A stretch of DNA of 64,000 nt, from assembly GCF_022627325.1 (NCBI RefSeq), contig NZ_JAETZZ010000010.1:1-64000 (forward strand). The letters are read 5' to 3'. This document shows positions 18,589 to 39,171 of this stretch, in pieces (position 1 is the stretch's first letter; every line of letters starts with the position of its first letter). The position numbers and the translations under genes were made by a program. The notes beneath the pieces were generated by a model. That model did not search any database. It was not told where the DNA came from and was given only the letters and a program-made list of their open reading frames with translations. This DNA is from Pseudomonas putida. Its GTDB lineage: Bacteria; Pseudomonadota; Gammaproteobacteria; Pseudomonadales; Pseudomonadaceae.

Positions 18589-18621
18589 GGTGTTCTCTCC
18601 CCAGATAACAACCCTTCCCTC

Positions 18622-23722: not shown

Positions 23723-24251
23723 GGCCGGTCTCCCAGGTGGCAGTCAGGGTGAAGCGCACCGGGTGCTCGGGTTGGCCCGCCACCACCTCATGGTTGAGCA
23801 GCGAGACATCGCTGAGCTCGGTGCTCTGCTCCAGGCGGTGGTGGTATTGCAGCATCGCTTCCAGGTTACGGGCCTCGGCGGCAATGCGGACCTGGCCCTT
23901 GCGGGCATCAGGGGTCAGGCTGAGCAGGGCCACGTCCGCCTGGGGTTGCGCTTCAAGCATGGCGAACAGTTGCTGCCAGGGCCGTTGCAGTTGTTGGGAA
24001 ACGCTACGCATCTGCGCCAGGCGTTCGGCCTGCTCGCGGCTGGCGGCGCTGCTCTGCGGGGCGGCCGTGGCCGAGCGGCGGCCCAGTTGCAGCTCCAGGC
24101 TGTGCAGCCGGGCCTCAAGGTGGACCTGCTCGGCTTGCAGGTGCTGTTGCAGCAGCACCATCACGGCCACCACGGCGCCGCCCAAGGCCAGCAGTGACCA
24201 GGCCAGCGGGCTGCTGCGCCGGGGTTGGAATTCCAGGTCGAGGCGGCGCAT
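23709..24251 (-). CDS. PilN/GspL-C-like assembly platform protein
   Basis: The 180-residue bitopic protein starts MRRLDLEFQPRR, then one TM helix (WSLLALGGAVVAVMVLLQQ), a coiled coil and a small periplasmic domain (LLSLTPDARKGQVRIAAEARNLEAMLQYHHRLE) like PilN. The ATG at 24251 lies 1 bp after the stop of the PilM-like gene. The split into separate PilM and PilN parts follows the type IV pilus rather than the fused GspL arrangement of classical T2SS. Confidence 0.75.
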   Translation of the reverse strand: MRRLDLEFQPRRSSPLAWSLLALGGAVVAVMVLLQQHLQAEQVHLEARLHSLELQLGRRSATAAPQSSAASREQAERLAQMRSVSQQLQRPWQQLFAMLEAQPQADVALLSLTPDARKGQVRIAAEARNLEAMLQYHHRLEQSTELSDVSLLNHEVVAGQPEHPVRFTLTATWETGHARP

Positions 24252-24252
24252 G

Positions 24253-25047
24253 TCAGGCCACCGCCCGCCACATGGCGCACAGCGGGTCGGTTTCGCTGGC
24301 CGGCTGGCACAGCTGCACCGCCGCCAGTTGCGGCACGTCGCCCCGCCCAGGGGCATGCAGGTAGACCTGCGGCATGTGCTCGCCATACAGCTCGCACGTC
24401 CGCTCGATCAGCGCCTGCAGGGCTTGGTCGCTGTCGGCGCAGCCTTGGGTCAGCACCTGCTGCCAGGCACCTCCGGCGGCCAGCAGCAGCACGCTGCGCC
24501 GTGGCTCGGCGAGGACAAACAGGAAATCCCCTGCCTGCAATTGCGCTGAGCAGCGGTTGTAGGCAGCCATCAGGTACGGCTGCACCGAGCGCAGGCGCAA
24601 GCGGTTGTCCTGGGCCAGTGTCTGCAGGCCCTGCAGCAATGCCTCGGGCAACGCCGTGGCGATACGCGCGGCACCGGCTGGCTCTGGCGAGAGGACGATG
24701 CGCCAGCCGTCGAGCGGCTGGGCATAGAGGTTCTCGAAGCAGGCTTGGGCGTAGGCCTGCAGCTCGCGTGGATGGCTGATGGCAGCGCTCCATGGCACCA
24801 GGCAGAAGCGGCTGTAACGCGCCGACAGCAACACCTGGCATTGGCCTGCGCGTACGGCATGCTCGCCCAGCAGCGCAGCCAGGGCCGGCAGCGCCGCTGC
24901 CCAGGCCGGTTCGCCGGCGTCACTGGTGAAGGCGCGGCTGCCCAGCCACTGGTGCTGGTTGCCGTGCCAGCGGCCCACACCGACGCCTTCGGCGCCGAGC
25001 ACGATGCAATAACGGGTAGAGGCATGATCACGCAATGAATGTGACAC
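24253..25047 (-). CDS. PilM/GspL-like cytoplasmic protein
   Basis: The 264-residue soluble protein has an actin-like layout (YCIVLGAEGVGVGRW at the start, LFVLAEPRRSVLLLAAGG in the second subdomain) and lies between the ATPase and the PilN-like gene, as expected for PilM or the GspL cytoplasmic domain that recruits GspE. GTG at 25047 is chosen because GAGGAG lies 7 nt upstream; the TTG at 25062 is part of that ribosome site. It overlaps the end of gspE by 20 nt. Sequence similarity is weak, so the call depends mainly on position. Confidence 0.65.
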   Translation of the reverse strand: MSHSLRDHASTRYCIVLGAEGVGVGRWHGNQHQWLGSRAFTSDAGEPAWAAALPALAALLGEHAVRAGQCQVLLSARYSRFCLVPWSAAISHPRELQAYAQACFENLYAQPLDGWRIVLSPEPAGAARIATALPEALLQGLQTLAQDNRLRLRSVQPYLMAAYNRCSAQLQAGDFLFVLAEPRRSVLLLAAGGAWQQVLTQGCADSDQALQALIERTCELYGEHMPQVYLHAPGRGDVPQLAAVQLCQPASETDPLCAMWRAVA

Positions 25048-26707
25048 GGTTGATCTCCTCAAGCGTGGTACGGCCCTCGCGGACCAGGTCCAGGGCGGAT
25101 GCGCGCAGCAGCCGCAGGCCGCGCTGGCAGGCCAGCGCCTTGATCTGCGCCAGTGGGCGACGTTCGACGATCATCTGCCGCAGGTCATCGTCCAGGTGCA
25201 GCAGTTCGGCGATGGCACTGCGGCCGCGGTAGCCACTGCCGCGGCACTGGCCACAGCCCGGGGCACGGACGAACGTCCAGCCCTGCACGGCGTCACGGGT
25301 AAGGCCAGAGGCGGCCAGGGTTTCGTCATCGGCCTCGCACGGCGTGCTGCAATGCGGGCAGGCCAGGCGGATCAGGCGTTGGGCCAGCACGGCGTTGAGG
25401 GCGGAGACGAAGCTGTAGGGGTCGACCTGCATCTGGCTGAAGCGGCCGATCACATCGAACACGTTGTTGGCGTGGATGGTGGTGAACACCAGGTGGCCGG
25501 TGAGTGCCGACTGCACGGCGATTTGCGCGGTGTCGGGGTCGCGTATTTCGCCGACCAGGATCTTGTCCGGGTCGTGGCGCAGGATCGAACGCAGGCCACG
25601 GGCGAACGTCAGGCCTTTCTTCTCGTTGACCGGGATCTGCAGCACGCCGGGCAGTTGGTACTCGACCGGGTCTTCGATGGTGATGATCTTGTCCACCCCG
25701 TGGTTGATCTCGCTGATCATGGCGTACAGGGTGGTGGTCTTGCCGCTGCCGGTGGGGCCGGTGACCAGGATCATCCCGTAGGGCTCGGCGGCCAGGCGGC
25801 GCAGGGCGCGCAGGGTTTCATCGGCAAACCCCAGGGCCTGCAGCTGTACGCCGCTGACCCGGTCGGACAAATCCTGCTTGTCGAGCACCCGCAGCACGGC
25901 GTCTTCACCGAAGATGCTGGGCATGATCGACACGCGGAAATCGATCTGGCGTTCGCCTACGGCAACCTTGAAGCGGCCATCCTGTGGCACGCGCTTCTCA
26001 CCGATATCCAGCTCGGCCATGACCTTGATGCGCGAAATCACCTGGTCGGCGAAGGCGCTGCCACTGGCCTTGCCGGCCGCATTGAGCACGCCGTCGATGC
26101 GGTATTTGATGGTCAGGCCCTGGCCGGTCATGCCCAGGTGGATATCGCTGGCATGCTGCTTGAGGGCGTCGTAAAGGGTTGAGTTGACCAGCTTGACCAC
26201 CTTGCTCTGGTCTTCGCTGATGCTGGTCAGCGACAGCCGTTGCAGCGGGTCGCTTTCGCTGTTGGCTTCGGCGTCGTGATCCAGGGCATCGACGGCGTGA
26301 AAGCTTTCTTCGTGGCGGGCCAGGAACGTGGCCAGGTCGGCGGCGTGGGCCAGGTACAACGGCGCCCCTTGCAGCACATCGTCGATCCAGGCCAGGCGGG
26401 CGTGGTCGAAGGGGTCGGCGAACACACCCCACAGTTCACCGCCCTGCTCTATCAGCACGAACTCGCGCTTCAGGCATTGGGCCAGGCTGATCTTGTCGAA
26501 CCGGGGGCTGCTGGCCAACAGGCGCTGGCTGTCCAGCACCGGGTAATGCAGGGTGCTGCCCAGGCGGCGGATGAAGGTGTCGGGGGTGTCGCAGGCGAGG
26601 CGCTCCAGGCAGTTGAGCAGGCGCTCGTCGCCGGCTTGCAAGCGGGCCTGGGCCAGCAGGTCGCGGGGGTATCCCGAGATTGGCAGAGGTTGTACTGCAT
26701 CGGACAT
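25028..26707 (-). CDS. gspE: Type II secretion/type IV pilus assembly ATPase GspE
   Basis: The 559-residue protein has a T2SSE N-terminal domain, Walker A GPTGSGKTT (317-325), the Asp box IITIEDPVEY (341-350), Walker B LVGEIRDPDTA, the His box HIL-type segment LTGHLVFTTIHANN, and a zinc site made of CPHCSTPC and CGQC. It powers pseudopilus growth at the inner membrane. It is the first secretion gene after the response regulator (57 bp apart). AGCGGAG precedes the ATG. No gspF platform gene is found in the operon. Confidence 0.92.
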   Translation of the reverse strand: MSDAVQPLPISGYPRDLLAQARLQAGDERLLNCLERLACDTPDTFIRRLGSTLHYPVLDSQRLLASSPRFDKISLAQCLKREFVLIEQGGELWGVFADPFDHARLAWIDDVLQGAPLYLAHAADLATFLARHEESFHAVDALDHDAEANSESDPLQRLSLTSISEDQSKVVKLVNSTLYDALKQHASDIHLGMTGQGLTIKYRIDGVLNAAGKASGSAFADQVISRIKVMAELDIGEKRVPQDGRFKVAVGERQIDFRVSIMPSIFGEDAVLRVLDKQDLSDRVSGVQLQALGFADETLRALRRLAAEPYGMILVTGPTGSGKTTTLYAMISEINHGVDKIITIEDPVEYQLPGVLQIPVNEKKGLTFARGLRSILRHDPDKILVGEIRDPDTAQIAVQSALTGHLVFTTIHANNVFDVIGRFSQMQVDPYSFVSALNAVLAQRLIRLACPHCSTPCEADDETLAASGLTRDAVQGWTFVRAPGCGQCRGSGYRGRSAIAELLHLDDDLRQMIVERRPLAQIKALACQRGLRLLRASALDLVREGRTTLEEINRVTFIA

Positions 26708-26764: not shown

Positions 26765-27295
26765 CTATTCCCCGGTGAGCAGTTGGTCGTCGTCGGGTCC
26801 AGGGGGCTTGGCGCCATTACGGCGGCGGTCGGCCAGTACCCAGCTACCATCGTACAACTGCAAGGGGAACGATTCGTTCCTGTTCTGGCGTCGTTCGACG
26901 AACCCTTCTGCCGGGTTGTCCGTGGCCCTGCGCCGGCGCTCGATGCCCATCAGGTCGAAGATCGGGCGCGCCAGTTCCGAGAGCGGGAACGGCTTGAACA
27001 GGACATGGGTCACGCCAAGTTCGGCGGCTCGCTCACGGACCTCGGCGGTCGGGTGGGCGGTGATGAGCACGAAGTGGCACTGCCTGTTCTTGCGCACGGT
27101 CTGCAGGACCTGAAAACCCTCCATATCGGGCAAGCGGTAATCCAGCACAATCACATCCGGTGCCAGGCGTTCAGCCAGGCCGATACCACTGGCACCGTCG
27201 TGGGCAACATGGACTTCCAGGCCTTGCGCCTGCAGGTACGCTTGCAGGTTTTGCGCAAGGGTCTGTTCGTCATCGACTACCAATACTCTGTTCAC
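26765..27295 (-). CDS. Response regulator with receiver domain and no DNA-binding output
   Basis: A receiver domain (VLVVDDEQTLAQNL, phosphoacceptor in VIVLDYRLPDMEG, switch Thr in FVLITAHP, Lys in VLFKPFPLSEL) takes up the first 120 residues. The remaining 55 residues are Arg/Asn-rich and carry RNESFPLQLYDGSWVLADRRR; no helix-turn-helix, AAA+ or enzymatic domain is seen. The start is GTG 27295 or TTG 27298, both behind GGGAG. It heads the secretion operon, downstream of a sigma-54-type promoter. It may act by protein contact on the secretion ATPase or on an upstream phosphorelay. Confidence 0.82.
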   Translation of the reverse strand: MNRVLVVDDEQTLAQNLQAYLQAQGLEVHVAHDGASGIGLAERLAPDVIVLDYRLPDMEGFQVLQTVRKNRQCHFVLITAHPTAEVRERAAELGVTHVLFKPFPLSELARPIFDLMGIERRRRATDNPAEGFVERRQNRNESFPLQLYDGSWVLADRRRNGAKPPGPDDDQLLTGE

Positions 27296-27359: not shown

Positions 27360-27375
27360 AGCAGGCTTCGTGCCA
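27360..27375 (-). promoter_or_regulatory. Sigma-54 (-24/-12) promoter of the response regulator/T2SS/csgEFG operon
   Basis: On the minus strand the sequence TGGCACGAAGCCTGCT matches the sigma-54 consensus TGGCACG-N4-TTGC(A/T) at every position except the first T of the -12 element. The invariant GG and GC are present with correct spacing. Transcription would begin near 27350, about 55 nt before the response regulator start. Confidence 0.72.
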
Positions 27376-27457
27376 GGCATGAATAGTCATGTTGCACCAC
27401 GTCAAGTTGTTGATTTTCAAAGCACCTTTGATAGCCCTACGAACAGGCCGAGGCCCG

Positions 27458-27477
27458 CTGCCCCACATCCGGGGCAG
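27458..27477. promoter_or_regulatory. Palindrome CTGCCCC-N6-GGGGCAG, putative enhancer site
   Basis: Perfect 7-bp arms around ACATCC, centred 106 bp upstream of the -12 GC of the 27.36-kb promoter. Its core CCCCACATCCGGGG matches the site at 39156-39169 in 13 of 14 positions and in the same orientation to the promoter. Confidence 0.65.
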
Positions 27478-27502
27478 TTGATGGCACTTTGCCAAGCCGT
27501 TA

Positions 27503-27520
27503 TTCCCCAGGTTTGGGGAA
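27503..27520. promoter_or_regulatory. Palindrome TTCCCC-N6-GGGGAA, second putative enhancer site
   Basis: Six-base arms around AGGTTT, 44 bp centre-to-centre from the preceding palindrome. Since it starts 16 bp after the stop of the SurA-like gene, it could also act as a terminator hairpin, although no T-run follows on the minus strand. Confidence 0.5.
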
Positions 27521-27535
27521 ACGCCATCGCAGGCT

Positions 27536-28177
27536 TCAGTCAGCGATTTCCACTTTAGCGGATTCGCGCAAACGTTGGCGCGCCGCTTGCCGTGCCTGCG
27601 CCTGCAATTGGCTGATGAGCGAAGCCCTGGCCAGCACCAGGCCCTGTTCGCGTATGACCGAAGAATTATCACTTTGGTTCTGCGCTCCTTGCAGCCTCTG
27701 TTGGTTGGCCTGATAAAACGCTTCCACCTCGGCCTGGGTGGGTTCGGCTACCGCGCTGAGCTGGGCATACACCTGTTGCGCTGCCAGCTCCCGGTGCAGG
27801 TAGTCAGCGTATGCTGCGCGGTCGAACCCTGCATCTGCAAGCCGTCGTTCAAACAGCGCCGGGTCACCGAATGCTGCTTCCACTTCACCTAGCTGCGCCG
27901 ACACCTGCTCATCGCTGATGGCGATGCCGCGGCGCTGGGCTTCTTGCCAAAGCAATTCCTTGTCGATCAGTTCATCCAGCGCCTGGCTACGCAGACGCTT
28001 GTACAGCGTGGGGTTACGGATGCTGGTCACAGCCCGCCCCTGTGCCTGCAGATATTCACTGAAATAGCGCTCCAGGCGCATCAGCCCGATGTCCACACCA
28101 TTGACCCGCGCCGCCGGGCTATCGGCCCAGCCCGCCTTGGCGATCAGCAGCAACAGGCACAGCATCACGATACGCAT
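27536..28177 (-). CDS. SurA-like periplasmic chaperone (SurA_N only, no parvulin domain)
   Basis: The 213-residue precursor has a signal peptide (ending GWA) and a SurA/PpiD-type N-terminal chaperone domain: ARVNGVDIGLMRLERYFSEYL, LDELIDKELLWQEAQRRGIAISDEQVSAQL. The C-terminal helix (VYAQLSAVAEPTQAEVEAFYQANQQRL onward) matches the part that normally continues after the parvulin domain, but the isomerase domain itself is absent. GGAGG just before the ATG at 28177 decides the start. As the last gene of the mnxG operon it may help fold or escort the giant oxidase in the periplasm (inference). Confidence 0.8.
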   Translation of the reverse strand: MRIVMLCLLLLIAKAGWADSPAARVNGVDIGLMRLERYFSEYLQAQGRAVTSIRNPTLYKRLRSQALDELIDKELLWQEAQRRGIAISDEQVSAQLGEVEAAFGDPALFERRLADAGFDRAAYADYLHRELAAQQVYAQLSAVAEPTQAEVEAFYQANQQRLQGAQNQSDNSSVIREQGLVLARASLISQLQAQARQAARQRLRESAKVEIAD

Positions 28178-28189
28178 GGCAACCTCCAT

Positions 28190-29716
28190 TCATGGGCTGA
28201 CCGGCACAGGCCGATAGGGTGCGACAGCGGTAAAGCGTGGCCCAGGCAGCGCCACTGCCACCACATGGGCACCGGCCAGGCCCTGGCGCTGGCCTGGCCC
28301 GAAACCCAGCGGCGGGGTCAGGCCGGTATCGATGTCATGCAAGCCCTCCAGCGCCGCGACCAGGCGTTCGCGGCTGGCATCACGGCCGATCTGCTTGAGG
28401 GCTTCGCCAAGCAGGCGCAGTGCGCACAGGGTACTGACCTGCAACGAGGCCTGGCGTGGGTCGAGGCCTTGGCGCTGCTGCAGGCCGGCCAAGGTCGCCA
28501 TGCCTTGTTCGGTCCAGTCGCTTGGCACGAACGGATAGGCCAGGAACACCCGCTGCGACCACTGGACCGGCAGCGAGGCGACGGCGCCGGCCACCTGGCT
28601 GGAGGTGGCGAACAGGTAGGGTTTACGGCCTGCCGCTTGCAACGCCGCAGCCAGCTCGGCAAAGGCCTGGGCGCGGCCGACGAACACAATGCCCTGCCCC
28701 TGCACCGCCTGGCCACTGAAGGCCTCGATCGGCCCCGGCGCCCAACCCTGCTGCTGCAGGCGCCCGCGCACCTGTTCGGCCAGCATTGCCTGGTCATCGC
28801 CGGCGTACACAACGCGCAAGCCATCTGGCGCCAGGCCCAGCGTTTCGCGGGCATGCACGGCCAGGCTCAGCAACTGCGTGGCAATGCCTGGCAAGGGGTC
28901 GAAGATGTGCGCGTTGCCGCCGCTACGCGGTGCACTGCCAACCAGGGGCACGCCGTGTTGTTCGAGCAGCAGCGCCAGGCGCGAGTCGAGCATCGGTGCC
29001 AACGGGCTGATCAGCGCAAATACCCGCTGCTGCCCGAGCAACTGGTGCAGCGCATGCTCGGCACTTGCCGCGTCGCTGCCGGGGTCGACCACCACCAGCG
29101 CCAAGCGCCGGCCATGCACGCCGCCCTGTTGATTGAGTTGGGCCACCCCGTCTTCGAGCACCGCGCGCACCACGTGCCCGGCCTCGGCCAACGGCCCGCT
29201 GGCGGGCAACAGGGTCCCCAGGCGTAGCACCCCTTCTTCCACGCCGGGGTCGCGCTCGTCAGCCAGGCGCTTGAGGTAGGCGGTTAGGTTGCGCTGGTCA
29301 GCCAGGGTGAGCTCGAAACGAGGCATGGCTGGGTCCAGGCGGTTGCCGGCGGGGTCCAGACCGTGCTGGATGGCGCGGGCCAGGCTGTTATCGGTGTAGG
29401 CCGGGTAGCTGCGGCCGTTGCTTTGGCGTGCACCCTGGCCCAGGGCCAGGCGCTGCCAGTCGAGGCTGGGCGGGCGCACCCCGCCTTCGGCGCGGCCTCG
29501 GCCGTCATTGCCGTGGCAACTGGCACAGGGCAATACACTGGCGGGGACGCTCATGTCACTGGCACCTACCCGGGCCATCAACTGTGCATCGCTGCTGGAT
29601 ACGCCTTCGCGGTACAGGCGTTTACCGGCTTGCTCGTGGGCGGTGAGGTCCAGGGCAAGCACCTGAACGCAGCAGGTCAGGCCTAGCGCCAAGCAAAGTG
29701 ATCTCGCTGTGTTCAT
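28190..29716 (-). CDS. Cytochrome c fused to a LivK-type periplasmic binding domain
   Basis: The 508-residue exported protein has a signal peptide, a class I cytochrome c domain with heme motif CASCH (Cys64, Cys67, His68) and likely axial Met131 (PAMPRF), then a full type I periplasmic binding protein from about residue 165 (LRLGTLLPASGPLAEAGHVVRAVLEDGVAQLNQQGGVHGRRLALVVVD) as in branched-chain amino acid binding subunits. No ABC permease is nearby. The fusion suggests electron transfer tied to ligand sensing, possibly taking electrons from Mn oxidation. GAGG precedes the ATG. Confidence 0.85.
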   Translation of the reverse strand: MNTARSLCLALGLTCCVQVLALDLTAHEQAGKRLYREGVSSSDAQLMARVGASDMSVPASVLPCASCHGNDGRGRAEGGVRPPSLDWQRLALGQGARQSNGRSYPAYTDNSLARAIQHGLDPAGNRLDPAMPRFELTLADQRNLTAYLKRLADERDPGVEEGVLRLGTLLPASGPLAEAGHVVRAVLEDGVAQLNQQGGVHGRRLALVVVDPGSDAASAEHALHQLLGQQRVFALISPLAPMLDSRLALLLEQHGVPLVGSAPRSGGNAHIFDPLPGIATQLLSLAVHARETLGLAPDGLRVVYAGDDQAMLAEQVRGRLQQQGWAPGPIEAFSGQAVQGQGIVFVGRAQAFAELAAALQAAGRKPYLFATSSQVAGAVASLPVQWSQRVFLAYPFVPSDWTEQGMATLAGLQQRQGLDPRQASLQVSTLCALRLLGEALKQIGRDASRERLVAALEGLHDIDTGLTPPLGFGPGQRQGLAGAHVVAVALPGPRFTAVAPYRPVPVSP

Positions 29717-29725
29717 TCTGGCCTC

Positions 29726-29748
29726 ATCGCCGGCAAGCCGGCTCCCAC
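29726..29748. repeat. REP-like palindromic element
   Basis: The core GCCGGC-AA-GCCGGC with flank CTCCCAC is like the common Pseudomonas REP sequence family. It lies in the 110-bp gap inside the mnxG operon. Confidence 0.5.
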
Positions 29749-29752
29749 TTTG

Positions 29753-29822
29753 TTCTGCGCCGCTGCACAGATCCTGTCAGTGTTGCCACTGCGTTCTGCG
29801 CCGCTGCGCACAGGCTGTCAGT
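29753..29822. repeat. Imperfect direct repeat, two 29-bp copies
   Basis: Copies at 29753-29781 and 29794-29822 share TTCTGCGCCGCTGC at the start and CTGTCAGT at the end, spaced 41 bp apart. Together with the REP-like palindrome they fill the only large gap within the mnxG operon. Confidence 0.6.
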
Positions 29823-29826
29823 ACAT

Positions 29827-30492
29827 TCAGCGTCCGGCCAACGGCTGGGCCAGCAGCTTCATGCGCTGGGCAATCGCCGCTGGCGGTGCATCGGGGCGGA
29901 TCTTGCTCCAGCGCTTGCCCGCCACGTCACCGGCTATCAGCTGGGTCGAGTGCTGCTCGGGGCTGGGCAGGAACTGGCCGATACGCCCCAGCACCACGTC
30001 GACGCTGGCTTTGTCGCCGGTCAGGAACAGCCAGTTGGCGCTGTCCACCCCTTGTTTTTCAGCAAAGGCCTTGAGCGCAGCGGGGGTGTCGTTGAGCGGG
30101 TCGCTGCTGATGGACACGAAGGTCACCTGGCTGGCCAGCTCAGGGCCCATGGCCTCGCGCACCTCACGCAGTTTGCGGGTGATCAGCGGGCAGGCATCGG
30201 TGCAGTGGGTAAAGATGACGTTGAGCATCACCACCTTGTCTTTGAGCACATCGCTGTAGAAGCGCAACGCGCGGCCGTTCTGGTCCTGGAGCACGGTGTC
30301 GGTGAACCAGGTCTGCGCGTCGCGGGTGCCTTCGCCACTGGCCATCGCCGGTGGCGAAGGCTGAGGGCTGGGCGCGCTCGGTGCGTGGCCTTCATGGGCC
30401 AGGGCCACCGACGCGAAGATCCACAGGCAACCGGCCAGGGCCAGCCAGTCGAAGCTGCGCATGCCGACACGACAGGACGCTTGGCTGCTCAC
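29827..30492 (-). CDS. SCO1/SenC copper chaperone (second copy)
   Basis: The 221-residue thioredoxin-like protein has the copper site Cys97-x3-Cys101 (THCTDACP) and His181 (EQHSTQL). A GTG at 30492 is the start because AGGAGG lies just upstream; it overlaps the stop of the previous gene by GTGA. The membrane anchor or signal is residues about 15-32, followed by a His-rich HEGHAPS stretch. SCO proteins deliver Cu to cytochrome oxidase; here a role in loading MnxG is likely from the context. Confidence 0.88.
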   Translation of the reverse strand: MSSQASCRVGMRSFDWLALAGCLWIFASVALAHEGHAPSAPSPQPSPPAMASGEGTRDAQTWFTDTVLQDQNGRALRFYSDVLKDKVVMLNVIFTHCTDACPLITRKLREVREAMGPELASQVTFVSISSDPLNDTPAALKAFAEKQGVDSANWLFLTGDKASVDVVLGRIGQFLPSPEQHSTQLIAGDVAGKRWSKIRPDAPPAAIAQRMKLLAQPLAGR

Positions 30493-31142
30493 GGTTGCAC
30501 CTCCTGGTGTTCGGCGATGGCCGTGCTCTTGGCATGCACCCGACGTGCGCTGAGGCGGTTGATTTCGTCGATCAGCACGGCCGGGTCGGTGAAGCCGTAA
30601 TAACGCGTCCAGTGCCCGCTGTGCCCGTCACCCACCAGAATCAGCGGCGGGTGCTGGCTGAGGTCGGCACTGAAGCTACCCAGGCCTTTGAGGGTCTCGG
30701 TGATGGCATAGGGCGAGCCGGTCAGCCAGCTCCAGCCTGGGCCATGCTGGAAGGCCTTGGCGTAACTCTGCAAGCGTTTGGAGTCGTCACGTTGAGGGTC
30801 CACGCTGATCGACACCAGGCGCACTTCCTCGCCTACCCGCCCCCCCAGTTGCTGCTGAACCTTGCCCATGATCGAAGACACCACCGGGCACACCGTGGTG
30901 CAACTGGTGTAAATGAAGCCCATCACCACCAGATGATCGCCGACCAGGTCCTTTTCCAGGCGCACCGGCATGCCATCCTGGTCAAGCAGTGAAACATCGG
31001 CGAAACGCACGCTGGCTTTCTCCTGATGTGCCGCTGGCGGCTGCGCATGCCCACTGTGGTCATGGCCCGCGTGGGCCAGGGCGAGTTGGCTGGCCATGGC
31101 CATGGAAAGTACGAGCAGCTTGCAAGAATGTCTGGCGTTCAT
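30489..31142 (-). CDS. SCO1/SenC copper chaperone (first copy)
   Basis: The 217-residue protein has a signal sequence, a His-rich segment right after it (HAGHDHSGHAQ), the copper motif Cys81-x3-Cys85 (SCTTVCP) and His164 (SQHPPLIL). It is complete and lies between the propeller protein and the second SCO, with 4-nt ATGA/GTGA overlaps on both sides. The two SCO proteins differ enough to be old paralogues. Confidence 0.9.
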   Translation of the reverse strand: MNARHSCKLLVLSMAMASQLALAHAGHDHSGHAQPPAAHQEKASVRFADVSLLDQDGMPVRLEKDLVGDHLVVMGFIYTSCTTVCPVVSSIMGKVQQQLGGRVGEEVRLVSISVDPQRDDSKRLQSYAKAFQHGPGWSWLTGSPYAITETLKGLGSFSADLSQHPPLILVGDGHSGHWTRYYGFTDPAVLIDEINRLSARRVHAKSTAIAEHQEVQP

Positions 31143-33121
31143 TGCACATTCCTCACTTCAGTCTGGGAGGCGGTAGACGCTGCGGCCGGCAGGACACGCA
31201 GGCTGGTGTAGTTCTCTTCGGCAAACTTGTGCCCCAGCGATGGCGACTGCACATGCAGGTACCACGCGCCGGCTTCAGGCAGCATCAGTGCAGCCTGGTA
31301 AACCCCCTCGCCCACCTCTTCCAGGCGCAGGTTGCGCGGCATCGATGACGGCGCCAGGAAGTAGCGCAGGGTCAGGTCGTCCAGGCCCACCCGGGGGCGG
31401 CCGTCGTCACCGAAGATGCGCACTTTGGCGGTGATGGCGCGGTGCTGCGCCAAGGGCTGGTCGAGGCCGATGAACTCGGCATGCGCGCCCTTGCGCTTGG
31501 CCGCATCCGGCACGGCGGCCACGTCGGTGCTGAAACAGTGAATGATCTGCGGCTGGTTGAGCAGGAACGCCACGTCGAACTTGCCCGACGCCGGCATCTT
31601 CACCGTCGAGCCATACACCCCCGGGGCCAATTCGCGCAGGCTGCGGTCGATGACGATGGCGGCGCGGGCCTGGTGGCCGCGGTTGTTGTAACCCGACATC
31701 GGTGCATTCATGCCTTCGGTATAGAAGTACGTGGTGTTGTCCACCGGGTTGACCACGAACACCGAATTGTCATCGCGTGACACCGACAGCGCCTGGGCCA
31801 GCGGCAGGTCGCCGGCCTGGCGCGGCGCGGCGGGGCCGGCATCGAAACCCTGGACGATCGGCTGACGGCCTTCGCCCAGGCTGCTCAGGTTGATCATGCT
31901 GACCTTCGAAGACGCCAGGCCGCGCACGTAGGCATAAGCTTTGGTGAACGTCAGTTGGTACGGCTCGGCGGCCACCGGGATGCGGTGGATCAACCTGTCG
32001 GTACTGGCATCGATCACCAGGGCCTGGTTTTCCAAGGTGTTGAGGACGATGCCGTAACGGCCATCGCTGCTGAAGCGCATCGGCCCCAGGCCTTGCTCGG
32101 CCTGGACGGTATGGCGCAACTGATGGCTGCGGGCATCGTACACCCGCACCGTGCCCTCTGAACCATCGCTGACGTACACCGCCTGCGACAGCGCCGAGTA
32201 GGCCACAGCCAACGGATGCGGGCCGACTTCCAGGGTGTTCACCAAGCGCATCTCGGGGATGTCGATAATGCTCAGGGTGCCGCCGTCGCGGTTGCTGACG
32301 AAGGCGTAGCGCGAATCGGCGCTGAAAGCGATTTCGTGGTGCCCGGAGCCGGTGGCGAAGCTTTTCAGCATGCTGCGGCTGTGCACATCGATCACCGTCA
32401 CCCCGCCCTTGGCCGGGTCATCACTGTTGTTGCCGACCCACAACCGGCGCTGGTCCGGCTGCAGGGCTACACGCAGCGGCATCTCGCCAGCCTCCAGGTT
32501 GGCCACACGGGTAAAGGTTTCGGTGTCGATCACCGCGACCTCGCCGCGCTCAGGTATCGACACGAATACCTGCTTGTCATCGGCGCTAGCTACCCAGTCC
32601 ATGGGTCGCCCCGGCAGTTCGATGCGTGCCAGGGTGCTGGTGACACCGCCCACCGAGACGGTCGGGTCGATCACCGTCAGGCTGGCATCCTTGTTCAGCA
32701 CCAGCAGGAAGTAACTGTTCAGATCCAGCAGCGGCCTGGCACCGATGCTGCTCTTGAGAAACAGCGCCACCCGGGCCTTGCAGCTCTGGTCACGGCTGCT
32801 TTCCTGCGGTGCCGCTTGTGCCGGGTCGATCCACGCCCCTGGCGCCATCCCCGACAGCGGTTGGCCGCTGTTCTGGTCGGTGACCTTGAAGCGAATATTG
32901 GCGAAGGCGCCTTCGCGCAACTCGCTCCCGGCCAGCGGCCGGGCCTCGAACTCCACGGTCACCCCATCCCGGCTGAGCCGGTGCAGCGCCTGCGGGTCGG
33001 CAGGCGCCTGCAGCAGCTCGCGCGGGTCGCACCAAAGCTCCTCGTAGGCCACGCCCAGGCCGATCAACGCCGCGCCCAGCAATACCCCCAGCACGGCGGG
33101 GCGGGTTTTCTTGTTATGCAT
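31139..33121 (-). CDS. Periplasmic YncE-like beta-propeller protein with flanking YtkA/FixH-like domains
   Basis: The 660-residue protein has one N-terminal TM/signal anchor, a beta-sandwich-like region (VTVEFEARPL ... IRFKVTDQNSGQPLSGM), then a seven-bladed propeller with YVTN-type repeats (DKQVFVSIPERGEVAVIDTETF, RRLWVGNNSDDPAKGGVTVIDV, SRYAFVSNRDGGTLSIIDI, QAVYVSDGSEGTVRVYDA) and a C-terminal YtkA-like domain (ITAKVRIFGDDGRPRVGLDDL ... YLHVQSPSLG). AAGGGG fixes the ATG at 33121, 17 bp after mnxG. It probably partners the oxidase in the periplasm or on the surface; its own ligand is unknown. Confidence 0.8.
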   Translation of the reverse strand: MHNKKTRPAVLGVLLGAALIGLGVAYEELWCDPRELLQAPADPQALHRLSRDGVTVEFEARPLAGSELREGAFANIRFKVTDQNSGQPLSGMAPGAWIDPAQAAPQESSRDQSCKARVALFLKSSIGARPLLDLNSYFLLVLNKDASLTVIDPTVSVGGVTSTLARIELPGRPMDWVASADDKQVFVSIPERGEVAVIDTETFTRVANLEAGEMPLRVALQPDQRRLWVGNNSDDPAKGGVTVIDVHSRSMLKSFATGSGHHEIAFSADSRYAFVSNRDGGTLSIIDIPEMRLVNTLEVGPHPLAVAYSALSQAVYVSDGSEGTVRVYDARSHQLRHTVQAEQGLGPMRFSSDGRYGIVLNTLENQALVIDASTDRLIHRIPVAAEPYQLTFTKAYAYVRGLASSKVSMINLSSLGEGRQPIVQGFDAGPAAPRQAGDLPLAQALSVSRDDNSVFVVNPVDNTTYFYTEGMNAPMSGYNNRGHQARAAIVIDRSLRELAPGVYGSTVKMPASGKFDVAFLLNQPQIIHCFSTDVAAVPDAAKRKGAHAEFIGLDQPLAQHRAITAKVRIFGDDGRPRVGLDDLTLRYFLAPSSMPRNLRLEEVGEGVYQAALMLPEAGAWYLHVQSPSLGHKFAEENYTSLRVLPAAASTASQTEVRNVQ

Positions 33122-33138
33122 GTTCGTACGCCCCTTTC

Positions 33139-36100
33139 TTATTGTGCTGGCGCCGTTGCCGGCGGTGCGTCGTCGGTAACCCGCAGAATCCCCCACAGCC
33201 CCGATGTATTGCCGTAGGCGGCGTAGTCACGGAACAGGTAGTCGCCCGGTACGGCGTTGGCGCCCCCGGCGCTGGGCAACATGAAGCTGAAGTGCGCGGC
33301 GGGCAGCACGCTCTCCTGGGCACCGATGTACATCGACATCGGGTTGTAGCCAAAGCGTACCGAGCCGATACCAGGCTGCTTCATTGGGTAGCCATCGAGG
33401 TCATTTTTCTCGGCCTGGAAGGCATGCAGCGGCCACAGGTGCCCATCGAGCTGGTAGGTGATGCCACGGCTGCCGCCACTGGGCATCACCACATGGCTGC
33501 GCACCGGTTGGCCGGGTTTGGCGTACAGCACCGGGGTTTGCGGGTCGCTACCCACCAGGGCATTGCTGTAGGCCATGTGCGCGTTGGGTACATCGCCGAA
33601 GCCAAAGCCATCGGCACGGCCGAACGGAGCGTCCGGTGCCAGGCCGAAGCGCAACCACAGCGGCTCGGTCTTGTAGTTGATGGCCATGTTGCCGTTGTCT
33701 TTCGGGTCACCCGGCACACCGTTGCCTTCGGTGGCGATACCCTCTACCGGGCGGCCGTCGGCCCAACGCATGTTCAGCGCCCGCTGCCAGACGGTGACGA
33801 AGTCACGGTAGTCTGGCTGGCCACTGACCTTGACCGAGGCTTGCGCCCGGCTGGCCGCGTCCTCGGTAAAGGTAGCGGTCTGCGGCAGGATGCTCATGGC
33901 ACCGACCAGGCCTTTCTGCGGTTGCTTGATGACATCCGCCGGGGTCAGGTTGAGAGCGCCGAACTCGATTGCCGTGGTGCGGATGTTGTCCACCGTGCGG
34001 CCCAGTTGCAGCACCGGCTTGCCTTCGCGCTCCAGGTGGCCGGCATAGTACTGGTACACCCTGGTCGGGTAGGCACCGCTGTTACCGCTGCGCGGCGGTA
34101 CGGTCTGCACCGGGTTGAGGCCGACGTTGACGCCATCGGACTTGGTGATGTCATAAGCCAGCAGTTGGGCGTGCAGGCCGACGTGGCTGGAGGGCCGCAT
34201 CAGGTTGTTGTTGAAGGCGGTGGAGCCTTCGCTGTCGTTGCGGTCGCGCTTGACCACGTTCTGCATCACCGCCGTGCTGGGCAGGTCCGGCATCACCAGC
34301 GGCAGGCGGTTCTCCAGGGTGATGCTGATGCAGTCCCCGGCATTGGCGCGCAACACCAGAGGCTCGACCGGCACCCCAGCCTTGAGCTTGCCGGTGCTGG
34401 TATCCAGGTCGGCCTTGCGCACGTACAGCACGGCGGTGGGGTCGTGCAGGGGCGCGCTGTGGCCACCCACGGTGAAGGTGGTGCCATCCTCCTCGTCGGT
34501 CACCGTCACCTGCGGGATGCTGGTGGTACGGCTGTTGAATACCAGGGTGCCGCCATCGGCCTTCAGCGGGCCGCCGACGTGCTGGCCGATACCGGCCGGG
34601 TCGCTGATGCTCACCCCATGGCGGTTTTCCAGGATGTCGTTGGCCAGCGCGGCGACCACTTCGTAGTTGCGCTTGACCGTTGGCCGGCTGCCGACGCCGC
34701 TGGGGTTGGCCGTGGTTCTCGGGCAGATACCGTCGAAGTTGATGGTGTTGCGCATGGCTACCGGCTGCGGGTTGTTCGGCAGCGCGAACAGGTCGGCCCG
34801 TTGCGCGGTGTAGTTGCGCATGACGCCCCAGATGCCGTTCCAGTAGCCTTCCAGCGCCGCGTCCAGCGAATACAGGTAGTCACCATTGGTGGCTGCCGAG
34901 CTGGAGATCATCGATACCGGCGCCAGGAAGCCCAGTTGCTCGGAAATGCCGATCATCTGCGAGGCCTTCCACCCCGAGTTGGAGCTGCTGCCGTAGCCGG
35001 TGCCGTTCTGCAGCCATTTGACGCCGTGCATCGTGACGTTGTGCTCCTCCTCATAGCCGCCAGCATGCATACGCAACCGCACGTTGTCGCCAGAGTAGGT
35101 GCGCAGCATCGGGGTGAACGGGTCGCCTGGCTCGCTGCCTGCTGTGTTGATGTGCGGTGGGAACAAGGTGGTGCCACCCGTGGGGCCAACCGCCGAGTTG
35201 ATCGCCGAGGGGGCCAGGTTCATGGCCGGGATGGCTCGGTCGGTGCGGCTCTGCAGGGCATACCCCAGGTCGCCCCCCAGGCCGTCGGCCTGCATGCCGC
35301 GTTTGCCATCCGGCGCCACCTTGTTCGGGTCGAAGACGCGCAGGGCCAACGGCTCGTTGCGGTAGTTGACGACGAACATGCCCGGGTCATCCACCGAGAT
35401 CGCCTGTGGGCATGGCCGGGTCGGGCAACCCGGGTTGAGGCCACCGCGTGATTCGACGATCGACTCCAGCAGGTTCGAGGCTTTCTGCCGCACGGGCGGG
35501 TTGATGGCGTAGCGGAAGCTGTCGGCCGAGGCTGGGTAGGCCTGGGCGTTGGGCACGCCATCGGGGCCGGCGCCCACATACACGCCTGCTTCATAGGCAT
35601 GCTGGAAGTCGCTGTACTCGAGGAAGAACTCGCGATAGCTGTCGTTCTTGCCATCGCCGTCATTGTCGCCGGTATTGATCACCGCCTGCCACGAGGTCGG
35701 GCCACCGTCCTGGCGCAGTGCCGGGTTGTACAGCTGCTCGCCGGTTTCGGCGTGGTGCCAGGTAGAGCCGGCAGGCTCGGCCAGCACAGTGGCGTACAGG
35801 CCCAACTGCTGGTGGGTCGATGGGCCGAAGTGGTCATGGGTGAAGATGGTGCCCAGGCCCCGGTCGACGTTGTGCACGTTGACCAGCGGGTCGGCGAACC
35901 AGCGCTGCATGGCCGTGCGCGCGCCCACCCAGTCGGCCCGGCCAAAGCGGCCGAAGTACGGGTGCGGCTTGGCCGTCGGGCAGGCTGCAGTGCCGTCGCG
36001 GCTGTCGCCCTCGGAACAGCCATTGAACGCACGGATGGCACGCACGCGTTCCACCACGCTGCCGGGCGAGAGGACACCGTCTTCGTAGTTCCAGCCGTTG

Positions 36101-39027
36101 GCCGAACCATCGGCTGAGGTCAGGTCCCACTTGGGCAGGTGGATGTGCTGGCCGATCACATCGGTCGGTGTACGCACCTGGTAGTCGTCCATTTCATAGA
36201 ACGCCGGGATCAGGTTGGTCTGCTGGTACATGGTGCAGTCGAAGGTGTTCATGCGCATCACCAGCGGCTCTGGCGGGCGCTGCTTGGTGATCACCGGCCA
36301 GGCGTCTTCCCACAGCGCAAGGATGCGCGTCTGCGGGAAGTGATAGCCGACCTTGTTGAACACCGCGTCGAACTGGATATTGGCCGCCTTGTAGATGCGA
36401 GGACGGTCGGCAGTGAACGTGGAGGCACCCCGGAAGCTGATGCTGCTCAGGCTTTCGCCGCTGTTGTATTCGCCCGTGGACGAGGCTTGGGTCAGACGTT
36501 TGCCGCGGTCATCCATGCACGGCTCGAAGAACGGGGCGCCGGCGGTTGGCAGAGCACCATTGGTGCGAAACGCCTTGGCCACCGGCTGGCTGCCAGGGAT
36601 CAGGGCAAAGCTTGGGTGCTCGGCCTTGGCGTGGAACTGCATGGCGGCCTGCTCGACCTCGGTGCCCTCCTCGGGCAGGTAGATCGGTTTGGCCTTTTCT
36701 ACCACCTTCGAGAAATCGAGCTTGGTGGTGGTGGTCACGGCTTCGCCCCCAGCGGAGACGCCATCGAGCGCATGTCGGCCCAGGCCGCCGTCCCATCCGT
36801 CGACCTGGTTGCCGTCGAGGTTGGCCCACAGCGCTGCGCCGCTGTCCTTGAGCTGGCGAGCCATGGCCGGGTCGAGCATGTCCAGCGGCGGGGTCGGCGG
36901 ACGCTGGCCGACGCTGCTTTCCATACCGCCGATCCAGAAGGGGTAGCCTGGGTTTTTCAGGGTGCCATCAGCGTTGCGGTTGGTTTCACTGCGGTCGACC
37001 AGTGCCAGCGAGCCTATAGCCTTGGCCGCGCCCGGCGCACTGCTGTGATCGTCATCGCCATGATCTGGGTCTTCGTGATCGTCGTCACCTTCGGCGACCA
37101 GCTCTTGCGCCAGTTTCGGCACGACCACCACCTTGCCCGGCATCGGCGCCATGGCTTTGCCTGGCAGCGGCACGATCGCCGGTATCGGCGTACCCGCGAT
37201 GATTTCGCCGTCAGGCAGCGCACGTGCCCCGGCCGCCGGCTTGCCGCTGCGCAGGGCGAACGGCGTGTCATGGAAGCCATCCTGCCCCTGCCCGCTGACT
37301 TCCAGGCGGGTCCCCTCCTCGAACACATCGTGCACCCGCCACATGGCCCACATGCCTTGGGCGAAGTGCGGATAGAAGTGGCAATGGTAGATGGCATCGC
37401 CCGCCACACGGTTACGGTTGCCCGAGCCGCCGTTGGCTATCTCATAGGTGTACCCCACACCTGGGCCTATGCCCTGGGCATCGATGTAGTCGGAGTTGTC
37501 GTCATTGGGGTTGAACAGCCACTGGTGGCCGTGCAGGTGGAAAATGTGCTGCTCATGGCCGTTGTGGGTGTTGCGGAACTTGGTGAAGTCGCCAATGTAG
37601 CTGTGGTGCACGTTGGACGGCTCGGATGGGTACAACGCCATGCTGGCCTTGACGCCAGTGGCGCTGGCCGGTGGGGTATCGCCTGGGCGAATGTGTTCAA
37701 GGCCGACGTTGGCTGGCACGTCCACCAGGGTGCCGATATCACCCACGGTGTGCGCGCTGAGGAAGAACTCCTCGAAGGCGCAGGACAGGCAATCGTGCAT
37801 TGGCCCGACACCCAAGCGGTTGGCAACGACTTCAGCACCCATACCGCCCGAGCCGTAGTTGATCATGAAGGCGTCGCGCGCAGGCTCCAGCACATGGCCC
37901 ATCACAGGGTCAGCCCAGTAGCCGGGGAAGGCCTGGGTGGAGGCCACTTCATCGGCAAACTGCGAGGCGAAATCGCGAAACGCTTCCAGCCGGTTGGGCA
38001 AGGCCGGGTTGCGCTTGTTGATGCTTTCCAGTGGGTAGGTGGAACGTGGGAAGCTACCGTCCGGGTTGGGCCCCATGACGATGGCATCGGTTTCACTGCT
38101 GAGGATTTCGTTGCCGTCGACCATCGCGATGATCGGCTTGCCCGCCTTGCCTTCGGCGATCCACGGCTCAACCTGAGGGTAGCGGGCCTCATAATCGACC
38201 ACGGGCTGGCCGGTGGCGGCACGGCCGGTACTGGCCAGGCGCATCTCCTCTTCGCTCAGGGTGTTGCGGTAGGTGCGCCCACCTTTGGGCACCACGACCA
38301 CTTGGCCAAACAGGCCATTGGCTACGTTGCCTGCGTTACCCTGGCCGCCGAAGGTAGCGCCCTGGCTGGTGGCGGCGAAGGCACCTTCGCGTTCGGCATA
38401 AAGGGTGTAACTGCGGGTGGCGCCTGGGGCGATCAGGAAGTTGCCGTTGCGGCCGGTGTTGGCGGCAATGTCGCCGATGCTGTTGACCGCCTGCAGGCCA
38501 TTGACCTGAAAGCCGACGTGGCGATCAGTGACCTGCTCGTCGACAACGAAGTTGTCGCCGCCCTCATTTTCCACCTCTGCGGCTTCTTCGCCTTCTTCGC
38601 CTTCTTCGCCTTCTTCTTCCTCTACACCTTCGACCTCGTTTTCATCATGGTCGATACCGTGTTTATTGGGATTGGCCTGGTAAGCCAACAGGTTGGTCAG
38701 GTTGACCGTCAGGCAATCCCCCGCGGCCACCCGCAGCACTATCGGGCGCGGGCGTTTGTCCGGGCGCAGGGTTACCTTGCCCGGCACTGCGGCGCCCCCC
38801 TTGCTCAGCGGTACCTGGTGTTCGTCCACCACATCCTGGCGCAGGGCGAACATCATGCCGTTGGCGTTTTGCGCACCAAGGCGGTTGAACATCAGCGGCT
38901 GGTCCAGGGCAATCACGTTGGCCACCAAGGTGCGCTGGCATTGCACAGCCGCTTCGCTGGTTGCTGTAACGCTCAGCAGGGCCAATACAAGTGATGTGAG
39001 GACGGGGCCTCTATTGGGGGTCGACAT
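33139..39027 (-). CDS. mnxG: MnxG-type giant multicopper oxidase, putative Mn(II) oxidase
   Basis: The 1962-residue exported protein (signal peptide ending near SEA) has type 1/trinuclear copper motifs: His494-x2-His497-x-His499 (HIFHLHGH), His548-Cys549-His550-x3-His554-x4-Met559 (HCHFYPHFAQGMW), and His-rich partner motifs HDH at 1064-1066 and HNVTMHG at 1329-1335. Length and layout fit MnxG of P. putida GB-1 (one of its Mn oxidases) and MofA, rather than common 500-residue laccases. An acidic Glu/Gly run lies at about 130-158 and a Asp/His cluster (DDDHEDPDHGDDDHSS) near 647-662. GGAGGTG places the start at 39027. It heads an operon with SCO chaperones and a cytochrome. Confidence 0.93.
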   Translation of the reverse strand: MSTPNRGPVLTSLVLALLSVTATSEAAVQCQRTLVANVIALDQPLMFNRLGAQNANGMMFALRQDVVDEHQVPLSKGGAAVPGKVTLRPDKRPRPIVLRVAAGDCLTVNLTNLLAYQANPNKHGIDHDENEVEGVEEEEGEEGEEGEEAAEVENEGGDNFVVDEQVTDRHVGFQVNGLQAVNSIGDIAANTGRNGNFLIAPGATRSYTLYAEREGAFAATSQGATFGGQGNAGNVANGLFGQVVVVPKGGRTYRNTLSEEEMRLASTGRAATGQPVVDYEARYPQVEPWIAEGKAGKPIIAMVDGNEILSSETDAIVMGPNPDGSFPRSTYPLESINKRNPALPNRLEAFRDFASQFADEVASTQAFPGYWADPVMGHVLEPARDAFMINYGSGGMGAEVVANRLGVGPMHDCLSCAFEEFFLSAHTVGDIGTLVDVPANVGLEHIRPGDTPPASATGVKASMALYPSEPSNVHHSYIGDFTKFRNTHNGHEQHIFHLHGHQWLFNPNDDNSDYIDAQGIGPGVGYTYEIANGGSGNRNRVAGDAIYHCHFYPHFAQGMWAMWRVHDVFEEGTRLEVSGQGQDGFHDTPFALRSGKPAAGARALPDGEIIAGTPIPAIVPLPGKAMAPMPGKVVVVPKLAQELVAEGDDDHEDPDHGDDDHSSAPGAAKAIGSLALVDRSETNRNADGTLKNPGYPFWIGGMESSVGQRPPTPPLDMLDPAMARQLKDSGAALWANLDGNQVDGWDGGLGRHALDGVSAGGEAVTTTTKLDFSKVVEKAKPIYLPEEGTEVEQAAMQFHAKAEHPSFALIPGSQPVAKAFRTNGALPTAGAPFFEPCMDDRGKRLTQASSTGEYNSGESLSSISFRGASTFTADRPRIYKAANIQFDAVFNKVGYHFPQTRILALWEDAWPVITKQRPPEPLVMRMNTFDCTMYQQTNLIPAFYEMDDYQVRTPTDVIGQHIHLPKWDLTSADGSANGWNYEDGVLSPGSVVERVRAIRAFNGCSEGDSRDGTAACPTAKPHPYFGRFGRADWVGARTAMQRWFADPLVNVHNVDRGLGTIFTHDHFGPSTHQQLGLYATVLAEPAGSTWHHAETGEQLYNPALRQDGGPTSWQAVINTGDNDGDGKNDSYREFFLEYSDFQHAYEAGVYVGAGPDGVPNAQAYPASADSFRYAINPPVRQKASNLLESIVESRGGLNPGCPTRPCPQAISVDDPGMFVVNYRNEPLALRVFDPNKVAPDGKRGMQADGLGGDLGYALQSRTDRAIPAMNLAPSAINSAVGPTGGTTLFPPHINTAGSEPGDPFTPMLRTYSGDNVRLRMHAGGYEEEHNVTMHGVKWLQNGTGYGSSSNSGWKASQMIGISEQLGFLAPVSMISSSAATNGDYLYSLDAALEGYWNGIWGVMRNYTAQRADLFALPNNPQPVAMRNTINFDGICPRTTANPSGVGSRPTVKRNYEVVAALANDILENRHGVSISDPAGIGQHVGGPLKADGGTLVFNSRTTSIPQVTVTDEEDGTTFTVGGHSAPLHDPTAVLYVRKADLDTSTGKLKAGVPVEPLVLRANAGDCISITLENRLPLVMPDLPSTAVMQNVVKRDRNDSEGSTAFNNNLMRPSSHVGLHAQLLAYDITKSDGVNVGLNPVQTVPPRSGNSGAYPTRVYQYYAGHLEREGKPVLQLGRTVDNIRTTAIEFGALNLTPADVIKQPQKGLVGAMSILPQTATFTEDAASRAQASVKVSGQPDYRDFVTVWQRALNMRWADGRPVEGIATEGNGVPGDPKDNGNMAINYKTEPLWLRFGLAPDAPFGRADGFGFGDVPNAHMAYSNALVGSDPQTPVLYAKPGQPVRSHVVMPSGGSRGITYQLDGHLWPLHAFQAEKNDLDGYPMKQPGIGSVRFGYNPMSMYIGAQESVLPAAHFSFMLPSAGGANAVPGDYLFRDYAAYGNTSGLWGILRVTDDAPPATAPAQ
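38583..38618. repeat. 9-bp in-frame tandem repeat inside mnxG
   Basis: Three perfect copies of CTTCTTCGC (plus strand) and a partial fourth encode Glu-Glu-Gly units in the acidic linker of MnxG. Changes in copy number would keep the frame. Confidence 0.75.
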
Positions 39028-39065
39028 GCTGCACCTCCGGGACACAAAAACTGTGCAAGAGGGTC

Positions 39066-39081
39066 AGCAAGGTGTATGCCA
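39066..39081 (-). promoter_or_regulatory. Sigma-54 (-24/-12) promoter of mnxG
   Basis: The minus strand reads TGGCATACACCTTGCT: the -12 half TTGCT is perfect, and the -24 half TGGCATA matches TGGCACG in five of seven positions with invariant GG and GC correctly spaced. Transcription would start near 39056, giving a leader of about 29 nt that contains the GGAGGTG ribosome site. Confidence 0.75.
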
Positions 39082-39133
39082 GAAGAAAATTTTCTTTTAG
39101 ATCAACGCCTTGGATTGGCAATTGAACCAGATT

Positions 39134-39147
39134 GGGGAGGATTCCCC
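39134..39147. promoter_or_regulatory. Palindrome GGGGA-N4-TCCCC near mnxG promoter
   Basis: GGGGAGGATTCCCC is centred 73 bp upstream of the -12 GC and 22 bp from the next palindrome. Its arms are reversed compared with the CCCC-N6-GGGG sites, so its role is less sure. Confidence 0.4.
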
Positions 39148-39153
39148 GCTGCG

Positions 39154-39171
39154 ATCCCCACATCAGGGGAT
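39154..39171. promoter_or_regulatory. Palindrome ATCCCC-N6-GGGGAT, putative enhancer site of mnxG
   Basis: Six-base arms around ACATCA; core CCCCACATCAGGGG matches the site at 27461-27474 in 13 of 14 bases. It is centred 95 bp upstream of the -12 GC of the mnxG promoter. Confidence 0.65.

Follow-up and report, generated by a model that had tools for sequence, protein, structure and literature searches.

What do two nearly identical palindromes in front of the two operons of one gene block tell about its control? The block lies in a stretch of 64,000 nucleotides from Pseudomonas putida (contig NZ_JAETZZ010000010.1, positions 1 to 64,000; hereafter the window) and consists of two operons, both on the − strand. 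One starts with mnxG, the gene of a multicopper Mn oxidase (33139..39027, − strand; assigned from homologues and gene order), and reaches position 27536. The other, hereafter the second operon, starts with a gene for a receiver-domain response regulator (26765..27295, − strand; PF00072, with an inferred GTG start) and carries ATPase/secretin secretion genes. An earlier note on this DNA had described near-identical 14-mers at 27461-27474 and 39156-39169, and both were confirmed there. It had taken them for the binding site of a common enhancer-binding protein, with the regulator MnxR as a candidate. The comparisons below point to the same answer: the 14-mer, in the general form CCCC-N6-GGGG, is probably the upstream activating sequence (UAS) of MnxR (probability roughly 0.8, as judged from sequence comparison).

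In front of mnxG, the candidate UAS (39156..39169, − strand; CCCCACATCAGGGG, which reads CCCCTGATGTGGGG in gene direction) is followed by a second conserved element, GGGG-N6-CCCC (39134..39147, − strand; GGGGAGGATTCCCC, gene direction GGGGAATCCTCCCC), 22 bp promoter-ward of the first site and with the opposite arm order. An IHF-like site (39100..39112, + strand; GATCAACGCCTTG) comes next, with one mismatch to WATCAANNNNTTR, which we take to be the consensus of integration host factor (IHF) and which is the basis of both IHF-like labels used here, and then a sigma54-type promoter (39067..39081, − strand; TGGCATACACCTTGC). The second operon is preceded by a distal candidate UAS (27505..27518, − strand; CCCCAGGTTTGGGG, gene direction CCCCAAACCTGGGG) and a proximal one (27461..27474, − strand; CCCCACATCCGGGG, gene direction CCCCGGATGTGGGG), 44 bp apart from centre to centre, and then by an IHF-like site (27403..27415, − strand; AATCAACAACTTG) and a sigma54-type promoter (27361..27375, − strand; TGGCACGAAGCCTGC). 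The second palindromes, 22 and 44 bp away, are thus where the earlier note had placed them. Counted from the middle of the site to the G in the −12 GC, the 14-mers lie 94.5 bp (mnxG) and 105.5 bp (second operon) from their promoters, that is, one helical turn apart as had been claimed.

The pattern CCCCACATCMGGGG, i.e., CCCCACATC(A/C)GGGG, is not common at random sites of the source genome (a putida-type Pseudomonas, 5.58 Mb in 79 contigs): it matches only twice, both times in the window, and the reversed control gives 0. The loose form CCCC-N6-GGGG is not rare: the genome has 60 matches (reversed control, 44) and the window has 5, where 3.35 would be expected. Because this form alone is common, rarity cannot settle the matter; conservation does. 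A pattern of site plus sigma54 promoter is found four times in the genome including both window sites (control 0); a match also lies at C18:6983, and a relaxed pattern adds C6:74715, C34:58164 and position 27461 on the + strand. A scan of the window for the sigma54 consensus with two mismatches gave 116 matches against 123 expected, which is noise.

For conservation, upstream regions were compared at mnxG (n = 81, the window and 80 loci) and at the response-regulator gene (n = 69, the window and 68 loci). The loci were picked via the MnxG protein in named Pseudomonas contigs, without use of the motif, and those closest to the window are mostly from P. putida-group strains. A sigma54-type promoter was matched in all regions (81/81 and 69/69). 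At the second operon, an exact proximal CCCC-N6-GGGG is present in 69/69 regions, 94.5-118.5 bp upstream (counted likewise to the G of the −12), and an exact distal site in 68/69, 41-45 bp farther upstream. Here each of the eight arm columns has 2.00 bits of information, while the cores have 0.90/1.15 bits and the flanks 0.33-0.55 bits; bias is also seen at the outermost core bases (CCCCR-N4-TGGGG). Distinct cores number 37 among 65 exact mnxG sites and 49 among 137 second-operon sites. The near-identity of the two 14-mers, observed as the earlier note had it, therefore does not hold as a signal in the core, which varies in relatives while the arms hardly do; that the two cores nearly agree in this strain is a coincidence.

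At mnxG, 63/81 regions have an exact site within 190 bp. When one mismatch is allowed, 79/81 have a site near the modal distances; these distances (83/95/106/120, ±3 bp) were fixed after the distances had been inspected, and the expectation of 1.8% comes from shuffles that preserve base composition only. The GGGG-N6-CCCC element is found 70.5-74.5 bp from the −12 in 67/81 regions, the window being alike. In 25 regions, of the fluorescens type, an exact site is at about 120 bp, and an imperfect CCCG-N6-GGGG occurs at 91.5-93.5 bp in three regions that were inspected, L057 (which has no exact site), L064 and L080. IHF-like sites with at most one mismatch are present in 43/81 mnxG, 43/69 second-operon and 15/16 mcoA regions.

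Which protein would bind the site? The source genome has 26 PF00158 matches to sigma54 activators, 20 of them strong. One of these proteins, encoded at L123:4728-6173, has receiver, sigma54-interaction (AAA+) and Fis-type helix-turn-helix domains, and its gene is preceded by two histidine kinase genes. Its fluorescens-type orthologue ends the series mnxS1 - multicopper oxidase - SCO - mnxS2 - activator (L197-L199). This activator was named MnxR because the order matches mnxS1-mcoA-SCO-mnxS2-mnxR of strains MS-1 and DSV-1 (PMC11409713, section 8). MnxR is described as an NtrC-type activator required for Mn oxidation in strain GB-1 (PMC11409713, PMC8218464), and rpoN as required for it in MS-1 (PMC11409713). 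The residues SRDMLRY of the recognition helix are identical in the 37 rows listed (32 genomes).

Among 199 Pseudomonas genomes, MnxR is found in 61 and lacking in 138. mnxG occurs in 59, every one of them with MnxR (the MnxR genomes without mnxG are G021 and G163), and an mcoA homologue in 56. A combined pattern of site and promoter (CCCCN6GGGG-N70-100-TGGCRYN6TGC, with the reversed pattern as control) is present in 92 genomes: 60 of the 61 with MnxR (all except G027) versus 32 of the 138 others (Fisher p ~5e-26, with kinship ignored). The matches number 158 in MnxR genomes versus 38 in the others, and those of the control 1 versus 17. Some matches look by eye like other things, such as a tRNA (CCCCTTAGGAGGGG), an insertion sequence (G005, G030) or a terminator-like word near a VpsR-like gene. 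A repeated element with CCCCAAGTGCGGGG mimics site plus promoter, with 18 copies in G005 (of the 158) and one listed in G030.

The word is also found at further promoters linked to this system. The p442-p760-curlin operon, which encodes secreted proteins of unknown family followed by a CsgA/CsgB-like protein, is divergent from mnxS1 in L193, L198 and L199; p760 has Ig/cadherin-like domains. p442 occurs in 60/199 genomes, all of them MnxR genomes (60 of 61). An exact site lies 97.5-112.5 bp upstream in 24 of the 29 p442 loci counted; the 30th, L301, has an exact site and was left out for want of a promoter match. At L113:3566-7155, p442 and p760 are paralogues of 442 and 760 amino acids, ~45% identical over their common part. 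As for gspG-gspF, a gspG match was present in 19 of 22 loci (not in L264, L271 and L272), and an exact site is present in 18 of the 19 stretches that separate gspG from a lytic transglycosylase gene, itself upstream of mnxS1, mostly ~109 bp from a conserved GTGCACGGCTGTTGC, which looks like a sigma54 promoter whose −24 is weak. In the same intergenic stretch (L123:10073-10263 and 18 related loci) the sigma54-like elements are divergent; toward transglycosylase-mnxS1, CGGCAC-N5-TTGC is conserved in the alignment, and CCCC-N6-GGGG lies downstream of it.

Stand-alone mcoA of putida-type genomes, named in the earlier note as a place to look for the site, carries it too: from 20 upstream stretches fetched, 16 were counted. 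A sigma54 promoter is present in 16/16, and 15/16 have a site, which is exact in 2 and has one mismatch in 13. The fluorescens-type second copies (L250-L253) were excluded. Among them, L251 has an exact site ~132 bp from a sigma54 match, L253 a one-mismatch word ~109 bp from a sigma54 match, L252 one-mismatch words without a sigma54 match, and L250 neither site nor match. Between mnxS1 and mnxS2, TGG(C/T)-N7-TTGC and a site precede mnxS2-mnxR in 20/22 loci. Nine sites are exact and 11 have one mismatch, at 92.5-96.5 or 84.5 bp; that of the source genome is among the latter (site L123:7830-7843, promoter L123:7740-7754). In the remaining two, L271 (G096) and L272 (G089), site and promoter were not found there and mcoA is directly upstream of mnxS2. 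A third arm, CCCC-N6-GGGG-N6-CCCC, is exact in 17/19 gspG regions and present with at most one mismatch in 26/29 p442 and 9/15 mcoA regions, and is rare at the second operon (1/69), which has two full sites, and at mnxG (2/67). The six-base gap is kept between all three arms, which suggests that more than one dimer may bind.

Furthermore, the distances of ~83-120 bp from word to promoter change in steps of ~11 bp. The proximal classes of the second operon are at 95.6 (43 regions), 105.9 (14) and 116.7 bp (12), and its distal ones at 138, 150 and 161 bp. Those of mnxG, for which overlapping G-tract registers were merged, are at ~83 (3 exact) and 95 bp, those of p442 at 98 (3) and 110 bp (21), those of gspG at 109 (17) and 120 bp (1), and those of mnxS2 at 84.5 (2 loci) and 95.5 bp. 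The rarer classes comprise one to three loci everywhere except at the second operon. Sites of one promoter thus keep to the same helical face, with 10-12 bp steps within five promoters. Sixteen distance modes, taken as independent and with mnxS2 excluded, cluster in phase near 10.8 bp (p ~0.006-0.02 versus uniform placement).

Several observations weigh against assigning the site to MnxR. Because the MnxR genomes belong to related clades, the genomes counted in the association are not independent of one another. Eighteen of the 81 mnxG regions have no exact site within 190 bp. In L055 and L080 the modal distances lack a site even when one mismatch is allowed, although L080 carries an exact site at 127.5 bp. 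The MnxR genomes that have diverged most, G027, G060 and G042, lack CCCC-N6-GGGG at its usual position before mnxG, and p442 of G042 showed no exact site. These three genomes retain the GGGG-N6-CCCC element at mnxG, and the site is retained at the second operon in G042 and at p442 in G027 and G060. The only three mnxG relatives found outside Pseudomonas, all distant (G231, G352, G499), lack both the site and a sigma54 match. The promoter-like element of gspG reads TG, not GG, at −24, the mcoA classes (92 and 107.5 bp) are not one turn apart, and none of the 29 p442 and 19 gspG regions has an IHF-like site when up to one mismatch is allowed.

Could the palindromes be products of a GC-rich genome, or signals in RNA? 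GC-rich words are expected in GC-rich DNA, and CCCC-N6-GGGG alone is near its background (60 vs. 44 genome-wide). The arms are invariant in 69 regions, however, and the word recurs with set spacing at five further linked promoters. Chance, which was rejected on arm conservation and on the 14-mer pattern occurring only twice in the genome, is hardly credible. As RNA hairpins or terminators, the palindromes would act in the transcript and not as protein-binding DNA. Indeed, at the mnxG site the stem reaches 6 bp, with a weak match to a terminator pattern on the + strand, and in the window the second operon's proximal site has the longer form CTGCCCC-N6-GGGGCAG. Yet the sole listed open reading frame of the + strand ending shortly before the mnxG site, 38693-39100, is antisense to mnxG, and no terminator match was found in the second intergenic region. 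Pairing beyond the arms is not maintained at mnxG, p442 and gspG (3/24 at the first flanking position of p442) and is partial at the second operon (32/69 and 45/69 at the first two positions), and the distance to the promoter shifts in helical steps. A hairpin or terminator was thus rejected, for lack of a terminator match at the second operon and for poorly maintained flank pairing, and is very unlikely.

A different sigma54 activator is a closer competitor, chiefly a VpsR-like protein (L118:4961-6286) with VpsR, sigma54 AAA+ and Fis-type helix-turn-helix domains. In Vibrio, VpsR takes part in the control of biofilms and of secretion. The VpsR-like gene stands directly upstream of mnxG in 2/80 loci (L008:4375-5700 and L023 ~4377-5702). 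In L008 it stands beside chelatase-like genes. A different activator, of 630 amino acids, is found upstream of mnxG in L036. The VpsR-like gene is present in 164/199 genomes, at least 103 of them without MnxR, where site plus promoter is scarce; the pattern does not follow this gene, since 60 of the 92 genomes having it are MnxR genomes. Moreover, the site precedes mnxS2-mnxR, in a comparison that did not extend to the upstream region of the VpsR-like gene itself. The VpsR-like activator was rejected as the main binder on this distribution, and a binder other than MnxR among the sigma54 activators is improbable. FleQ was considered in view of a report that fleQ deletion changes Mn oxidation in GB-1. 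Its reported consensus is A/T-rich, and to our knowledge FleQ is general among flagellated pseudomonads. That the site tracks MnxR weighs against FleQ, whose binding here is a slim prospect.

Taken with MnxR, the observations fit together as follows. A conserved dyad stands upstream of −24/−12 promoters, co-occurs with mnxR and is found at both mnxG and mcoA. The invariant arms, stepwise spacing, linked operons and co-occurring activator strongly support the claim of a common enhancer-binding-protein site, and the gene order, the co-occurrence and the site before mnxS2-mnxR support MnxR as candidate binder. MnxR is probably the binding protein and probably activates by binding. In the proposed mechanism, active MnxR would bind CCCC-N6-GGGG ~83-120 bp upstream of −24/−12 promoters, joined at some of them by binding at a second site or an accessory half-site, would loop to sigma54 polymerase with the help of IHF at some promoters, and would drive open-complex formation. 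The predicted regulon would comprise the mnxG operon, the response-regulator/ATPase/secretin operon, gspGF, p442-p760-curlin-like, separate mcoA and mnxS2-mnxR. MnxR thus probably activates its own genes, the mnxS2-mnxR site being a candidate for positive autoregulation in putida-type genomes.

UASs of the NtrC type (NtrC at glnA; XylR/IHF at Pu) are dyads ~80-160 bp before a −24/−12 promoter, often paired and helically phased, sometimes with an IHF site in between. The present sites share the dyad, the pairing, the helical phasing and, at both operons, the IHF-like site in between, whereas the word itself (CCCC-N6-GGGG), the accessory CCCC half-site at +N6 (gspG, p442, part of mcoA) and the inverse-order element of mnxG are different. 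The two-component pathway MnxS1/MnxS2/MnxR is described in GB-1 (Geszvain and Tebo; via PMC11409713, PMC8218464) and is said to be a positive regulator of mnxG and mcoA (PMC9765421); it has the candidate regulator and two target operons in common with the present analysis. What would be new is the DNA site; the secretion, curlin-like and gspGF operons would join the candidate targets, and autoregulation is probable. IHF and sigma54 sites were already predicted at GB-1 PmnxG and PmcoA, the same promoters with the same IHF/sigma54 layout, and the main text of that paper, apart from its Supplementary Fig. 1, mentions no activator site, palindrome, inverted repeat or enhancer (PMC11930936). Among the papers listed for such terms, none was on an MnxR binding site, as judged from titles and the beginnings of abstracts; an earlier mention in the original GB-1 papers is possible.

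The mnxG operon encodes MnxG (a weak match to the Cu-oxidase_3 profile, under its curated cut-off), beta-propeller/cytochrome d1-like, SCO1, cytochrome c/periplasmic-binding and SurA-like proteins, in the gene order of GB-1 (PMC11409713, Table 4, section 8). An mcoA homologue was not found in the source genome at E <= 1e-100, and therefore mnxG may be the only multicopper Mn oxidase of this system there. The type II secretion/type IV pilus-like genes (20318..26707, − strand; from domain matches) include those of a secretion ATPase (type II/IV; 25028-26707), PilN (23709-24386), PilO/T2SSM (23159-23722), a secretin (20788-22665) and an N-methylated pseudopilin (20318-20791), all on the − strand. 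csgE, csgF and csgG come after this operon (window 17737-19439). csgEFG beside the secretion operon and a CsgA/B-like gene in another site-bearing operon suggest that this regulon includes a curli-like system split between operons.

Tentatively, and with somewhat less than even odds, MnxR might be a self-amplifying sigma54 switch, acting via CCCC-N6-GGGG on the oxidases, a dedicated type II secretion system, a curli-like layer and its own genes. In GB-1, expression from PmnxG and PmcoA is Mn-dependent and bimodal, confined to a subpopulation (PMC11930936); if the switch is real, feedback via the mnxS2-mnxR site would explain this all-or-none behavior. With the site, probable MnxR targets can be named, autoregulation is predicted, and any Pseudomonas genome can be searched for its regulon. 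The inferred regulon would tie the Mn oxidases to a type II secretion system, to surface fibres and to surface proteins of unknown function. A defined regulator site would make it testable how and why bacteria decide on Mn(II) oxidation.

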